Assembly (NCBI GenBank): GCA_030694465.1
Contig: JAUXYJ010000002.1
Span: forward strand, 62,001-126,000
Reading direction: 5' to 3'
DNA length: 64,000 nt
Source: Deltaproteobacteria bacterium
Lineage (GTDB): Bacteria > Myxococcota_A > Polyangia > Polyangiales > Ga0077539
A program made the position numbers and the translations under genes. This document shows positions 4,032-13,202 of the stretch, piece by piece. Numbering within the stretch: the stretch's first letter is position 1; each line of letters starts with the position of its first letter. A model generated the notes under the pieces. The model searched no databases, was not told where the DNA came from, and worked only from the letters and a program-made list of their open reading frames with translations.

Positions 4032-4235
4032 TCAGCCGCCCTGTTTGGCGCAGGCGCCTTCAAAGCCCTGCTTGCCGTGCGCGCCATCGCAGAAGGGCTT
4101 GTTGACCGAATGGCCACAGCGGCAGAGCGCAAAGGGAGCCTTGGCGACCGCGATCTCTTCGCCCGTCTCAGCGTCGAGCACGGTGCACGCTTCGCTGACC
4201 AAGAGGGGCCCATTTTTTAGTACGGTGATCTTCAT
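4032..4235 (-). CDS. CDGSH iron-sulfur domain protein
   Basis: A 67-aa protein that carries one CDGSH-type zinc-finger motif: CRCGHSVNKPFCDGAH. This fits C-X-C-X2-S-X3-P-X-C-D-G-A-H, the three-Cys one-His ligand set of a labile 2Fe-2S cluster. Stand-alone bacterial CDGSH proteins are small cytosolic redox or cluster-transfer proteins with poorly known partners. The ATG at 4235 gives a compact protein starting MKITVLKNGPLLV, the usual N-terminal strand of the family; longer versions only add Cys/Trp-rich sequence without homology. A 15-base inverted repeat lies about 40 bases upstream of the start (4273-4287). A short CCCCC/GGGGG stem lies just past the stop at 4016-4028 but lacks a T run. Confidence 0.86.
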   Translation of the reverse strand: MKITVLKNGPLLVSEACTVLDAETGEEIAVAKAPFALCRCGHSVNKPFCDGAHGKQGFEGACAKQGG

Positions 4236-4272
4236 AACGTGAGCTCTTTCGCGAGAGAAATACCAACAACGA

Positions 4273-4287
4273 CAGCAACCGTTGCTG
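4273..4287. promoter_or_regulatory. Perfect inverted repeat upstream of the CDGSH gene
   Basis: CAGCAAC, one base, then GTTGCTG: two perfect 7-base arms around a single C. It sits in the gap between the CDGSH gene (start 4235) and the end of the upstream gene (4312), about 38-52 bases before the ATG. A dimeric repressor site is a natural reading. It could also be a small hairpin in the leader. No known operator is recognised. Confidence 0.35.
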
Positions 4288-4311
4288 CCAAGAGAGAGCA
4301 TCGCACAAGAC

Positions 4312-4935: not shown

Positions 4936-5010
4936 CGCGCGAGAACTCTGCACGCGATCCCGCCGCGTTGCCAAGCCCAGCGAGCCCGCTGGATTTCTCT
5001 GGCACTTGCC

Positions 5011-5047
5011 TCTTGTTCAATAGCGATGTTCACTATAATGAACGCCT
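5011..5047 (+). promoter_or_regulatory. cysDN promoter with a palindrome over the -10 box
   Basis: A perfect TATAAT lies at 5034-5039 and the cysD GTG start is at 5048, only 8 bases later. Transcription would therefore start at or within a base or two of the start codon, which implies a leaderless mRNA. No good TTGACA lies 17 bases upstream; TCTTGT at 5011-5016 is the best placed. The -10 box is inside a 16-base near-palindrome, GTTCACTATAATGAAC (5028-5043, 7 of 8 pairs match), and a further GTTCA half-site lies at 5015-5019. A repressor bound here would block RNA polymerase directly. The GTTCAC/GTGAAC arms recur upstream of the Cys/Met enzyme gene at 23726-23767. Confidence 0.55.
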
Positions 5048-5962
5048 GTGCTGAAAGAATCGTATAGCCTCGACCACCTCGACGCGCTCGAAGCCGAAGC
5101 CATCTTCATCTTTCGCGAGATCGCCGCCGAGCGCGAGCGGCCCGTCTTGCTCTTCTCGGGTGGCAAAGACTCGATTGTCTTGCTCAGGCTCGCAGAGAAA
5201 GCGTTTAGACCCGCGAGGTTTCCCTTTCCGGTGATGCACGTGGACACGGGGCACAACTTCGCTGAGGCCACAGATTTTCGCGACAAACGCATGCAAGAGC
5301 TCGGTGAGCGCTTGATCGTCGCGAGCGTGCAGCAGTCCATTGACGAGGGCCGCGCCGTCGAAGAGACCGGCCCTCGGGCATCACGCAATCGCTTGCAGAC
5401 CGTCACACTTCTCGACGCGATCGCGACGCACCAGTTCGACGCGTGCTTTGGCGGCGCGCGGCGCGACGAAGAGCGCGCGCGGGCCAAAGAGCGCATTTTT
5501 TCGTTTCGCGACGAGTTTGGTCAGTGGGACCCCAAGAACCAACGCCCCGAGCTCTGGTCGCTCTACAACGGCCGCGTCAAAAAGGGAGAGCACCTGCGCG
5601 TGTTTCCGATCTCGAACTGGACCGAGATGGACGTGTATCAGTACATCAAGCGAGAATCCCTGGAGATTCCCAGCATTTACTTCGCCCACGAGCGCGAGGT
5701 GTTCTCTCGCGATGGCATGCTCTACGCAGTGAGCCACGCAGTGACCTTGGGCCCTACCGAGAGCGCATTTCGCGAGACCGTGCGCTTTCGCACCGTGGGC
5801 GACATGAGCTGCACCGGCGCCGTGCGATCCACCGCACGAACCATCGACGAGATCATCGACGAGGTCGCGGTCTCGCGTGTCACCGAGCGCGGCGCAACCC
5901 GCGCCGACGACCGCTTCTCCGAGGCCGCGATGGAAGACCGAAAGCGCGAGGGCTACTTCTGA
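5048..5962 (+). CDS. cysD: Sulfate adenylyltransferase subunit 2
   Basis: A 304-aa CysD. It has the PP-loop nucleotide-binding motif LLFSGGKDSIVLLRL (core SGGKDS, residues 37-42), VMHVDTGHNF, and the C-terminal RFRTVGDMSCTGAV region of the ATP-sulfurylase small subunit. Together with CysN it makes adenylyl sulfate from ATP and sulfate in the cytosol, the first step of sulfate assimilation. The start is GTG 5048; the ATG at 5038 is in another frame and gives only a 9-codon peptide. It overlaps cysN by one base (TGATG), so the two are translationally coupled. Length matches the family. A TATAAT box and palindrome sit directly upstream. Confidence 0.95.
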   Translation: MLKESYSLDHLDALEAEAIFIFREIAAERERPVLLFSGGKDSIVLLRLAEKAFRPARFPFPVMHVDTGHNFAEATDFRDKRMQELGERLIVASVQQSIDEGRAVEETGPRASRNRLQTVTLLDAIATHQFDACFGGARRDEERARAKERIFSFRDEFGQWDPKNQRPELWSLYNGRVKKGEHLRVFPISNWTEMDVYQYIKRESLEIPSIYFAHEREVFSRDGMLYAVSHAVTLGPTESAFRETVRFRTVGDMSCTGAVRSTARTIDEIIDEVAVSRVTERGATRADDRFSEAAMEDRKREGYF

Positions 5963-7227
5963 TGTCCACCATGTCCATGCTGAGATTCTCGACCGCCGGC
6001 AGCGTCGACGACGGCAAAAGCACCCTCATCGGTAGGCTCTTGTTCGACGCCAAAGGCATCTTCGAAGACCAGCTCGCCCACGTCGAAGAGGCCTCGCGTC
6101 GCCGCGGTTTTGACCGCACCGACCTCGCCCTGCTCACCGACGGACTGCGCGCCGAACGCGAGCAAGGCATCACCATCGACGTGGCCTATCGCTACTTCGC
6201 CACGCCCAAGCGCAAGTTCATCATCGCGGACACGCCAGGGCACATTCAGTACACACGCAACATGGTCACCGGCGCGAGCACCGCCGACGTCGCCCTCGTG
6301 CTCGTCGACGCACGCCACGGCGTGGTCGAGCAGTCGCGCAGACATGCGACGCTGTCCATTCTGCTAGGGATTCCGCAGATGATTCTCTGCGTGAACAAGA
6401 TGGACCTCGTCGACTGGAGCCCCGCGCGTTTTGACGAAATCAAGCGCGAGTTCGCACAGCTCATCGCCAAGCTCAACGGCCCCACGCCCTACGCCATCCC
6501 CCTGAGCGCCCTGCACGGCGACAACGTCGTCACCCACAGCGACAAGACCCCTTGGTACCAAGGCCCCGCGCTCTTAGAGCTCCTAGAGTCCGACGCGCTC
6601 GTGCCCGCGATTGACACCACGCACCCGCGCTTCGCCGTCCAGTGGGTCATCCGCCCACAGAGCGAGGCCTTTCACGACTACCGAGGCTACGGCGGCCAGA
6701 TCGCAGGCGGGAGCTTCTCGGTCGGCGACGAGGTCATTGTCCTCCCCGCAGGGCACGTCTCGCGCATCACCGCGATCGACCTCGGCACGCAATCACTCGC
6801 CCACGCACGCGCCCCGCAGAGCGTCACGCTGCGCCTCGCCGACGACCTGGACATCTCGCGTGGCGATATGATTTCACTCGCGAATTCGCAGCCCATGGTG
6901 ACCAATCACCTGCGCGCCCGCGTGTGCTGGATGGCCACCAAACCGCTCACAGCCCGCAGCACCCTCGCGATCAAGCACACCACACGCTGGGCCCGCGCGA
7001 TGGTCACGCAAATCGAGAGCAAGCTCGACGTCACAACGCTCGAAGCGATCCCCAACGTCACCAAGCTTGAGCTCAACGACATCGCCACCCTCGCGCTCAA
7101 GACCACCTCGCCCTTGGTCATCGACCCCTACGCGATCAACCGACGCACCGGAAGCTTTATCCTCGTCGACGAGAGCACCAACAGCACCGTCGCCGCAGGG
7201 ATGATCGAAGCAGCCATCGACGACTGA
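5962..7227 (+). CDS. cysN: Sulfate adenylyltransferase subunit 1 (GTPase)
   Basis: A 421-aa CysN. GTPase motifs are complete: GSVDDGKST (G1, residues 13-21), GITID (G2, 70-74), DTPGH (G3, 91-95) and NKMD (G4, 146-149), followed by two beta-barrel domains of EF-Tu type. GTP hydrolysis drives the energetically poor adenylation of sulfate by CysD. It is about 50 aa shorter than the E. coli enzyme (475 aa) and has no fused APS-kinase (CysC) domain; no cysC or cysH lies nearby, so APS must be handled by genes outside the window. The ATG overlaps the cysD stop by one base. Confidence 0.94.
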   Translation: MSTMSMLRFSTAGSVDDGKSTLIGRLLFDAKGIFEDQLAHVEEASRRRGFDRTDLALLTDGLRAEREQGITIDVAYRYFATPKRKFIIADTPGHIQYTRNMVTGASTADVALVLVDARHGVVEQSRRHATLSILLGIPQMILCVNKMDLVDWSPARFDEIKREFAQLIAKLNGPTPYAIPLSALHGDNVVTHSDKTPWYQGPALLELLESDALVPAIDTTHPRFAVQWVIRPQSEAFHDYRGYGGQIAGGSFSVGDEVIVLPAGHVSRITAIDLGTQSLAHARAPQSVTLRLADDLDISRGDMISLANSQPMVTNHLRARVCWMATKPLTARSTLAIKHTTRWARAMVTQIESKLDVTTLEAIPNVTKLELNDIATLALKTTSPLVIDPYAINRRTGSFILVDESTNSTVAAGMIEAAIDD

Positions 7228-7257: not shown

Positions 7258-7587
7258 ATGGCCCGCTTGATGTTCATGTTTGTGTTGCCCGTGCTGCTCT
7301 TCGCGGTGCTGCTCTATGGCATCAGCCGCAGCCGCGTACTGTTTGTGATCACCGTCAAGAAGGGCCGCATCGCCAACGTGCGCGGGCGCTGCCCACCAGG
7401 CCTCGTAGGCGAGCTCTCAGACGCGCTCAAAGGCAGCGATGCGACAGGCCGATTGATCGCAGTCCCCGAGGGCGACATCGCGCGGGTCGATGGCGTCGGG
7501 AGCTTCTCAAAAGACACCCTGCAGCGCGTACGCAACGTGCTCGGCACCGTGCCCCTCACACGCCTCCGCGCCACCCCTCCACGCTAA
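7258..7587 (+). CDS. Small membrane-anchored protein, DUF3634-like
   Basis: A 109-aa protein with one N-terminal membrane segment (residues 4-21, MFMFVLPVLLFAVLLYGI) followed by RVLFVITVKKGRIANVRGR and a soluble tail of about 65 residues. The F-V-I-x-V-x-x-G-x strand and the helix GLVGELSDAL fit my memory of DUF3634, a family with no known role. A single helix with a cytosolic tail is the expected topology. It begins 30 bases after cysN and could be on the same transcript, although nothing links it to sulfate assimilation. Confidence 0.6.
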   Translation: MARLMFMFVLPVLLFAVLLYGISRSRVLFVITVKKGRIANVRGRCPPGLVGELSDALKGSDATGRLIAVPEGDIARVDGVGSFSKDTLQRVRNVLGTVPLTRLRATPPR

Positions 7588-10898: not shown

Positions 10899-12026
10899 TC
10901 AGTCCGACTCTTCGCTGCCGCCTTCACACGGGATCTCGGTCACCTGCGTCGCGCTCCGCCTTCCCTCGCGCCACGCGTCCGTCGCTGGATCATAGAGCAC
11001 CGTCTCGGTGCGTGAGAGACAGCACCACGGGCCCCCAACGTCACCGCCCTCAGCCTCTCGGGCGCGTGTGCATCCGCGAGAGACCAAGGACTCTGGATCC
11101 TCACCAACCTGTGGCTCGCAGTCTTCGCCGCTTACGATGAGATCCGCGTGGCCATCGCCGTTCACATCGCGCCACCGCGTCGTGCGTCCTCGGCTCGTGA
11201 GCGTTTCGGGAGCCTGCGGGACCACGCTGCGCTCGACCATCGCCACCAACCGCGGCGTGGGGGTCAGGTCAAACACCGCGAGATAGCCATAGGTCACAAA
11301 GCCCGTCGGGCACGTCGGTTGCGAGCAAAACGTGATGGCCAGCGAGAGCTCTTTTTCGCCGTCTTGATCCAGGTCACGCACCTGCCGACCATTCACCGTA
11401 AGCGTGCACCCGTTGCTATCCCGCGCCTGCCACACATTCTCTGTGGGCACATACGCGAGGCCCTCGATCTGCGGGGCCGCTGCGTTTTCGCTCACAGTCA
11501 CCACCGCCAACCTCGGCGAGCGCGGATAGGCCGGGTCGGTCTGCATCACCACCGCGACATACCTCCCCTCGCCCAGCGCGCTAAACCCGCCCTGCGCGAC
11601 AAAGCTCGCGCTCGAGGCCACCTGCGTACGCAGCGCAGCCAACACCGACCCCATCGTCGGCGCGCGACCCGAGCGCTCGCTCACCGCGGCAAACGTGTGC
11701 GCGGGCGCAGCGTTGCGCTGGCTCGCAGGCATCGACTGAAGCGCGCTCTCGTTGAGCTCGGCAAACTCGATCCCGCCCGAGGTCCGGTACCCCGTCGTCG
11801 CCACGGGACGCGAGGGCGGCGTAGGGCTTGGCTCCACAACCTGCGCGGTCGGCGGGCTCTGCGACGCATCCCATGGGGCCCCGGCGTCGTGCACCACGGG
11901 CGCGACCTCTTGCGCAACCACCTGTGTATTCGCAGTGATTTCAGAGGTCACCGCGGGCACCGCGCGCTCACGCTTGCAACCACTCAGCGCCAACAACGCC
12001 CACACCACTGCCCCTGCGTGCTTCAT
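10899..12026 (-). CDS. Lipoprotein of a tandem paralogous pair, copy A
   Basis: A 375-aa lipoprotein with the short signal MKHAGAVVWALLALSGC (Cys17). A Pro/Thr-rich linker is followed by a conserved block beginning SGGIEFAELNESALQS, a beta-rich region (YVAVVMQTDPAYP, EIEGLAYVP-like strands), a calcium-loop-like DLDQDGEKELSLAI, and a second loop DVNGDGHADLIVSGEDC. The two DxDxDG loops recall EF-hand or FG-GAP calcium sites. Family unknown. The gene at 12087-13202 is a close paralogue in direct tandem, with long stretches of near-identical DNA, so the pair arose by recent duplication. No partner or pathway is suggested. Confidence 0.66.
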   Translation of the reverse strand: MKHAGAVVWALLALSGCKRERAVPAVTSEITANTQVVAQEVAPVVHDAGAPWDASQSPPTAQVVEPSPTPPSRPVATTGYRTSGGIEFAELNESALQSMPASQRNAAPAHTFAAVSERSGRAPTMGSVLAALRTQVASSASFVAQGGFSALGEGRYVAVVMQTDPAYPRSPRLAVVTVSENAAAPQIEGLAYVPTENVWQARDSNGCTLTVNGRQVRDLDQDGEKELSLAITFCSQPTCPTGFVTYGYLAVFDLTPTPRLVAMVERSVVPQAPETLTSRGRTTRWRDVNGDGHADLIVSGEDCEPQVGEDPESLVSRGCTRAREAEGGDVGGPWCCLSRTETVLYDPATDAWREGRRSATQVTEIPCEGGSEESD

Positions 12027-12086: not shown

Positions 12087-13202
12087 CTAAGAGCCCTCGT
12101 CAGGGGTCACTTGGGTCTCTTCGGTCTCGGTGTTTTCGCACGAGATCTCGCTCGCCTGCGTCGCGGTCCGGCTGCCCTCGCGCCACGCGTCCGTCGCTGG
12201 ATCATAGAGCACCGTCTCGGTGCGCGCGAGACAGCACCATGGACCAAAGGGCTCTCCCTCTTGCGCCTCGCGGACCCGCGTACACCCACGCGAGAGCAAC
12301 ACGGCCGCGTCCGCTTCGGCCGTGGGTTGGCAGTCCTCGCCGCTCACGATGAGATCCGCGTGGCCATCGCCGTTCACATCGCGCCACTGCGTCCTGCGCC
12401 GCCTCGTCGCCCACGCGTTGGCCAACGTCGGAGTCAAACTTCGCTCGACCATCGCCACCAACCGCGGCACAGGGACCAAGTCAAACACCGCGAGGTACCC
12501 ATAGGTCGTAAAACCAATCGGGCAGCTCGATTGCGAGCAAAATCGCACCGCAAGCGAGATCTCTAGCTCTCCGTCTTGGTCCAGGTCGCGCACTTGTCTC
12601 CCTTCGAGCGTGAGCGCGCACCCGTCGTCTCCGTGCGCCTGCCACACGCCCTCGGTGGGCACATACGCGAGGCCCTCGATCTGCGCTGCGCTTGCGTTTT
12701 CGCTCACGGTCACCACGGCCAACCTCGGCGAGCGCGGATAGGCCGGGTCGGTCTGCTCGATCACCGCGACGTACCTCCCCTCGCCCAGCGCGCTCAGCCC
12801 ACCCTGCGCAACAAATCTTGCGCTCGAGGCCACCTGCGCACGCAGCGCAGCCAACACCGACGCCATCGTCGGCGCGCGCCCCGAGCGCTCGCTCACCGCA
12901 GCAAACGTGTGCGCAGGCGCAGCGTTGCGCTCACTCTCAGAGATCGACTGCAGCGCACTCTCGCTGAGGTTCGCAAGCTCGATCCCGCCCGAGGTCGCAT
13001 AGGTCCACGACGCCGGCGCGTGGGCATCACGTGACGCATCGCGTGACACATCAGCGCGCAACGCGGCGTCACGGGTGTGCACATGCACGTCGCGAACGAC
13101 CAGCACATCTGCAGGCATTTCGTGCGCCGGGGGAAGCGTCGTCGGTGTGCTCTTGCAACCAATCAGCGCCAACAACGCCAACACAGCCCCTGCGTGCTTC
13201 AT
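12087..13202 (-). CDS. Lipoprotein of a tandem paralogous pair, copy B
   Basis: A 371-aa lipoprotein with signal MKHAGAVLALLALIGC (Cys16) and the same plan as its neighbour at 10899-12026: a short linker, SGGIELANLSESALQS, a beta-rich core, DLDQDGELEISLAV and DVNGDGHADLIVSGEDC. The linkers differ most (this one is Asp/Arg-rich, VSRDASRDAHAP), whereas the cores are close to identical, which is usual for surface lipoproteins. It follows the TSUP/hutH operon on the same strand by 28 bases and may be read through from it. Function is unknown. Even numbers of cysteines and the DxDGD loops suggest a calcium-bound, disulfide-containing exported domain. Confidence 0.66.
   Translation of the reverse strand: MKHAGAVLALLALIGCKSTPTTLPPAHEMPADVLVVRDVHVHTRDAALRADVSRDASRDAHAPASWTYATSGGIELANLSESALQSISESERNAAPAHTFAAVSERSGRAPTMASVLAALRAQVASSARFVAQGGLSALGEGRYVAVIEQTDPAYPRSPRLAVVTVSENASAAQIEGLAYVPTEGVWQAHGDDGCALTLEGRQVRDLDQDGELEISLAVRFCSQSSCPIGFTTYGYLAVFDLVPVPRLVAMVERSLTPTLANAWATRRRRTQWRDVNGDGHADLIVSGEDCQPTAEADAAVLLSRGCTRVREAQEGEPFGPWCCLARTETVLYDPATDAWREGSRTATQASEISCENTETEETQVTPDEGS

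Follow-up and report, generated by a model that had tools for sequence, protein, structure and literature searches.

A palindrome over the -10 box of a cysDN promoter as a candidate operator of a SutR-like XRE-cupin regulator

Sulfate assimilation and cysteine genes are controlled in well-described systems by CysB and CymR, members of the LysR and Rrf2 families, whose sites and site positions differ from the cysD palindrome described here. Work by Yamamoto in 2015 is said to have given E. coli SutR (YdcN) a role in sulfur utilisation. The annotation of that host lists SutR among dual regulators, and an excerpt of an E. coli study (PMC8464067) reports a palindromic YdcN (SutR) motif. According to the available part of another study (PMC7901475), XRE-cupin proteins of Pseudomonas are inhibitors that recognise palindromic sites within core promoters and most likely act by covering the promoter. 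Leaderless mRNAs make up 22.2% of the mRNAs of S. avermitilis, as stated in an excerpt of PMC8780764. Our limited search of the open-access literature returned no described sulfur regulon for the bacterial group studied here, and a text search with the letters of the palindrome gave nothing relevant. The parts described below are of known kinds; their joint occurrence in the control of sulfate activation has, as far as these searches show, not been described for this group.

The window, the whole 64-kb stretch of DNA analysed here, has 64.5% G+C and contains a single exact copy of TATAAT, both strands counted. As an earlier note on this DNA had claimed, this copy is separated by 8 bases (GAACGCCT) from a GTG start codon (5048-5050) and lies inside GTTCACTATAATGAAC, a dyad in which 7 of 8 pairs are symmetric, the exception being C5033/A5038 (Table 1). 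No second copy of the dyad was found in the window at up to 3 mismatches, where dinucleotide shuffling gives an expectation of 0.01. The gene that starts at the GTG encodes CysD (TIGR02039, 438 bits, above the cut-off) and the following gene encodes CysN (TIGR02034), in the operon order cysD-cysN. The promoter thus has an exact sigma-70 -10 hexamer, and a scan 16-18 bp upstream of it found no canonical -35 box. TTGTTC is the best -35 candidate; its TTG (5013-5015) is shared, without change in distance, by the four cysD promoters that were aligned (the window's own genome, G000, and G004, G006 and G009), and TTGCCT occurs at an equal distance in the cysD promoter of a further relative (L098). 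Immediately 5' of the promoter, at 4977-4992, the sequence CCAGCGAGCCCGCTGG resembles the stem of a terminator, with a weak T tail. The surroundings also include a DUF3634 gene right behind cysN (7258-7587), a small CDGSH iron-sulfur protein gene close to the operon (4032-4301, minus strand) and, further away, two adjacent genes (10899-12026 and 12087-13202, minus strand) whose similarity suggests a tandem duplication.

Table 1. Features of the cysDN promoter and operon, in window coordinates.
Feature	Position	Strand	Basis or remark
TTGTTC, candidate -35	5013..5018	+	TTG kept in four promoters; short 15-bp spacer
Palindrome GTTCACTATAATGAAC, proposed operator of a SutR-like XRE-cupin repressor	5028..5043	.	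conservation, recurrence at sulfur genes
-10 box TATAAT within the operator	5034..5039	+	same GTG offset in 8 genomes
8-base discriminator; predicted transcription start at or up to 2 nt from G5048	5040..5047	+	based on the common spacing of -10 box and +1
cysD, starting at GTG and proposed to be leaderless	5048..5962	+	
cysN, ATG start overlapping the cysD stop	5962..7227	+	

We propose that the cysDN promoter is probably a compact switch. RNA polymerase would recognise TATAAT together with the weak TTG at 5013 and would start at, or within 2 bases of, G5048; with such a start, the mRNA would open with the GTG start codon, and its translation would not involve a Shine-Dalgarno sequence. The 16-bp dyad, whose core is formed by the -10 bases, would be bound by an XRE-cupin regulator as a dimer. 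When sulfur is sufficient, the bound regulator would cover the -10 box and block the polymerase, and when sulfur is short it would leave the dyad. The same regulator would also control its own gene and a MoeB/MoeZ-type rhodanese-ThiF gene and, in relatives, cysK, cysE and an ABC-transporter gene.

The leaderless mRNA that the earlier note had predicted is supported by the spacing between the -10 box and the GTG and by weak Shine-Dalgarno pairing. TATARt-N8-GTG precedes cysD at one offset in 8 genomes of the family. In G004, G006 and G009 the form TATAAT-N8-GTG is exact, with operator and spacing conserved and the flanks more divergent. In a second genus (G008, G010, G011 and G012), TATAGT or TTTAGT stands exactly 8 nt before the GTG of a cysD whose product is only 51-52% identical to the window CysD. 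Summed over these 8 promoters, which were chosen after their layout had been seen, the match to TATAAT is 42/48 at offset 8, and the next best of offsets 0-39 reaches 24. Pairing of the window cysD with the anti-Shine-Dalgarno sequence amounts to -0.8 kcal/mol, which is no convincing Shine-Dalgarno, and pairing of -2.0 kcal/mol or stronger was found at 39 of the 53 gene starts that a simple script called in the window (an approximate set to which cysD itself does not belong). As an in-frame TGA lies upstream of the GTG (5039-5041) and the next ATG, GTG or TTG comes only at about codon 34, within the conserved domain, GTG 5048 is the only credible start. Transcription usually begins 6-8 bases beyond the -10 box, and the purine G5048 is compatible with the last position of this range. 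From these features, the cysD mRNA is very probably leaderless. Two points stand against this: the missing canonical -35, and the GTG start, in contrast to the strong preference for AUG in leaderless mRNAs of S. avermitilis (PMC8780764, in the same excerpt).

The layout is not uniform among relatives. In L098, GGAGGG lies very near the cysD GTG. Codon 2 of cysD is ATG in G006 and G009, and a 3-nt leader is therefore also possible in these two genomes. The cysD genes of three other family members (G001, G003 and G007) are without the TATARt-N8-GTG layout, and in two genomes of another family (G018 and G032) the site lies 60 and 41 nt before the aligned cysD start; the leaderless layout thus belongs to part of one family and not to the whole regulon.

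CysD was detected in 30 of the 37 relatives' genomes searched. Within one family (loci L084-L103) CysD falls into types that share about 86%, 65% and 52% identity with the window CysD, and the outer two types (about 86% and 52%) have one common leaderless promoter layout; the coding region may have been replaced or transferred beneath a retained promoter. The closest named CysD (81%) comes from a MAG labelled Euzebyaceae (Actinomycetota; L004), which suggests transfer or a misbinned contig, and a Sandaracinaceae MAG (L005, 77% identity) is also among the nearest named relatives, which points to Myxococcota, order Polyangiales, as the probable lineage of the window. Upstream of cysD in genus g3 (L097-L099 and L101), the -35 region is covered by another stretch resembling a palindrome (CTTCACTTGCCTGAAC, with close variants), possibly a second operator.

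A different arrangement at this promoter would have the XRE-cupin protein bind but activate, or a leadered mRNA arise from a promoter further upstream, so that the dyad would not be a simple -10 occlusion site. This would agree with the annotation of SutR as a dual regulator and with the absence of a good -35 at cysD. However, the site covers the -10 box itself, the distance from that box to the GTG is fixed in 8 genomes, the window cysD lacks convincing Shine-Dalgarno pairing for a leadered mRNA, and the Pseudomonas XRE-cupin proteins act as inhibitors according to the available part of PMC7901475. We consider this arrangement improbable; repression by covering the -10 box is the likely mode of action on this analysis.

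The earlier note had also predicted an operator role for the palindrome and had suggested a search for it upstream of other sulfur genes. In this search it recurred at cysE, cysK and MoeB/MoeZ-type genes; its distribution tracks one XRE-cupin regulator, and similar sites precede the gene of that regulator. Four of the 183 genomes analysed from the order carry the exact palindrome GTTCAYTATARTGAAC, which lies at cysD in G000, G004 and G009, directly after cysE in G009 and in the cysK promoter of G097, 5 places in all; the reversed control has none. With up to 1 mismatch there were 19 places in 18 of the 183 genomes (control: 3 places). Eleven of the 19 adjoin cysD (5), cysE (1), cysK (1), a MoeB/MoeZ-type rhodanese-ThiF gene (2) or a regulator-adjacent ABC ATPase gene (2). 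Six more adjoin genes whose sulfur link is weak or only presumed by us, namely DUF4395 with carbonic anhydrase (G089, G090), DUF2292 (G026), a TauD-family gene (G127) and a gene for a fumarate-reductase-type flavoprotein akin to AprA (G151, G152). The remaining two have no link, and a sulfur connection was rejected for the sites in G058 (within a coding region) and G111 (at a desaturase gene). Separate mismatch-tolerant searches gave two more MoeB/MoeZ-type sites, in G006 and G004. In G009, the site next to cysE is followed by a HAD gene, which scored only 82.5 bits as acireductone synthase, below the cut-off. In L159 and L160 (G089 and G090), two operator-like palindromes stand in tandem before the DUF4395 gene, which is followed by the carbonic anhydrase gene.

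The window's own genome contains one strong site only, that of cysD. Its MoeB/MoeZ-type gene has GTTCAATAGAATGAAG 28 nt before the start, with a score of 18.1, weaker than the cysD site, and its best cysK match has no site upstream. The loose pattern GTTCANNNNNNTGAAC is useless in this genome, as the reversed control has more matches (7) than the genome itself (3). Similarly, when up to 2 mismatches were allowed, the same genome had 1 place and the control 3; for GTTCNNTATANNGAAC with 1 mismatch the numbers were 3 and 8.

Because the -10 box is AT-rich and partly self-complementary, some symmetry is expected at any such promoter, and the dyad could resemble an operator by chance, or through promoter constraints alone, without serving as one. 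Yet the outer half-sites GTTC/GAAC, which the -10 box does not need, are conserved, one genome has a perfect palindrome, and recurrence at other sulfur genes with a control of 0 argues strongly against mere resemblance, which is extremely unlikely. Judged from sequence, the palindrome is almost certainly an operator.

The candidate regulator of the window's own genome is encoded at G000:C28:59782-60474 (locus L175:1501-2199, minus strand, with the start taken at L175 position 2199). It has the XRE-cupin architecture, with HTH_3 (59.5 bits) and Cupin_2 (43.7 bits) both above their cut-offs. Its alignment with E. coli SutR (110 bits) spans 183 aa, almost the full length of SutR, at 36% identity. 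No NCBIfam equivalog scored above the cut-off; the best solved relative is 1y9q. The gene has sulfate/sulfonate genes around it and adjoins an APS-kinase-like reading frame, and in G003 a site is flanked by an ABC ATPase gene and by the XRE-cupin gene, the latter divergent from cysC (APS kinase). Neighbours of the regulator orthologues in the fetched loci, mostly named by eye with a sample checked by Pfam, are ABC ATPase, cysC, sulfite/nitrite reductase, ATP sulfurylase, tetrapyrrole methylase or cysN. Upstream of the regulator gene itself, 24 of 35 loci, drawn from 61 orthologue-bearing genomes, have a similar palindrome scoring at least 10, against 46 of 3000 random windows. This site is CTTCACTATGACGAAG in the own genome, G004 and G006 and GTTCGCTATGACGAAG in G009, and as all of these span the regulator ATG, part of the match is also dictated by coding sequence. 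The own-genome site scores 16.1 and is weaker than that of cysD.

Site and regulator also occur together across genomes. With orthologues defined by E <= 1e-60 (61 of 183 genomes), a site within 1 mismatch is found in 15 of the 61 genomes with the regulator and in 3 of the 122 without it (Fisher p = 6e-6, not corrected for the relatedness of the genomes), and 46 of the 61 have no site within 1 mismatch. A leave-family-out weight matrix with a score of at least 12 recovered sites at cysD in 7 of 14 genomes with an orthologue and in 0 of 15 without, one truncated cysD locus being skipped; the other 7 regulator-bearing cysD genes score below the threshold. The corresponding figures are 10/15 against 0/15 for the MoeB/MoeZ-type gene and 4/15 against 0/15 for cysK, in 30 genomes picked by hand, several of them for known sites; when genomes already known for the gene in question are left out, they become 6/11 and 3/14, each against 0/15. 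Pooled over the three genes, sites are present in 21 of 44 loci with the regulator and 0 of 45 without, in a selection that was partly site-aware. Random windows reach the matrix score in 13-20 of 3000 draws. These patterns make the XRE-cupin regulator quite probably the binder of the palindrome.

The palindrome might instead be a sulfur operator over the -10 box for another regulator, for example of Rrf2/CymR-like or ArsR type, with the XRE-cupin gene co-occurring only as a member of the sulfur cluster. Rrf2 and ArsR families do regulate sulfur or cysteine genes elsewhere, and Rrf2 proteins are present in G000, G004, G006 and G009. However, G097 (a genome 84% complete) has the exact cysK site but only a fragmentary Rrf2 match below the cut-off, and by eye no such palindrome precedes the Rrf2 gene of G000. 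Rrf2 was set aside as the binder on these two observations (five genomes examined). The similar palindromes that precede the XRE-cupin gene at 24 of 35 loci, and a palindrome of the same type at E. coli sutR, also speak for the XRE-cupin protein, so that another regulator seems unlikely.

In E. coli, the ydcO-sutR gap contains two palindromes, GTGCGTTATAGCGTAC and GTCCGTTATAACGCAC, where SutR may bind to judge by position. The pattern GTnCnYTATARnGnAC, which was written after these palindromes had been seen, occurs twice in 16 kb of E. coli, both times in this gap, once in the window (at 5028) and not at all in 516 kb of background. A wider reading is that a SutR-type XRE-cupin protein is a principal repressor of sulfate assimilation in the order, with an operator type shared with E. 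coli, and that in one family operator, -10 box and leaderless start codon are fused in one element, kept despite CysD differing as between separate lineages; we regard the case for this reading as evenly balanced. If true, it would give sulfate activation in this bacterial group a named repressor and operator that can be put to the test. It would then also be a clear example from nature of repression and leaderless initiation both fixed to one short run of bases, and E. coli SutR, which has been little studied, would be connected with an operator recognisable well beyond its own group.

The proposed system differs from CymR in that the presence of Rrf2 proteins, in the five genomes examined, does not match the distribution of the palindrome. 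Like Actinobacteria leaderless mRNAs, the cysD mRNA is predicted to have no leader, and the window cysD has no convincing Shine-Dalgarno, but here the start is GTG, the host is presumably non-actinobacterial and the operator coincides with the -10 box. As for the Pseudomonas inhibitors PsdR, PauR and ErfA, a palindrome lies in the core promoter of the proposed target, here also near the regulator's own gene, and inhibition would come from covering the promoter; those proteins serve other small-molecule pathways with one or few local targets, whereas a spread sulfur regulon is proposed here. SutR has the same HTH_3 and Cupin_2 architecture, a sulfur role and, in its own upstream gap, the palindrome pattern of the window cysD. 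Unlike SutR, the regulator described here has a longer N-terminus and is associated with genes of sulfate activation (cysDN, cysC, sulfite reductase), and the inner half-site of its putative operator is TTCA rather than GCG/CCG.
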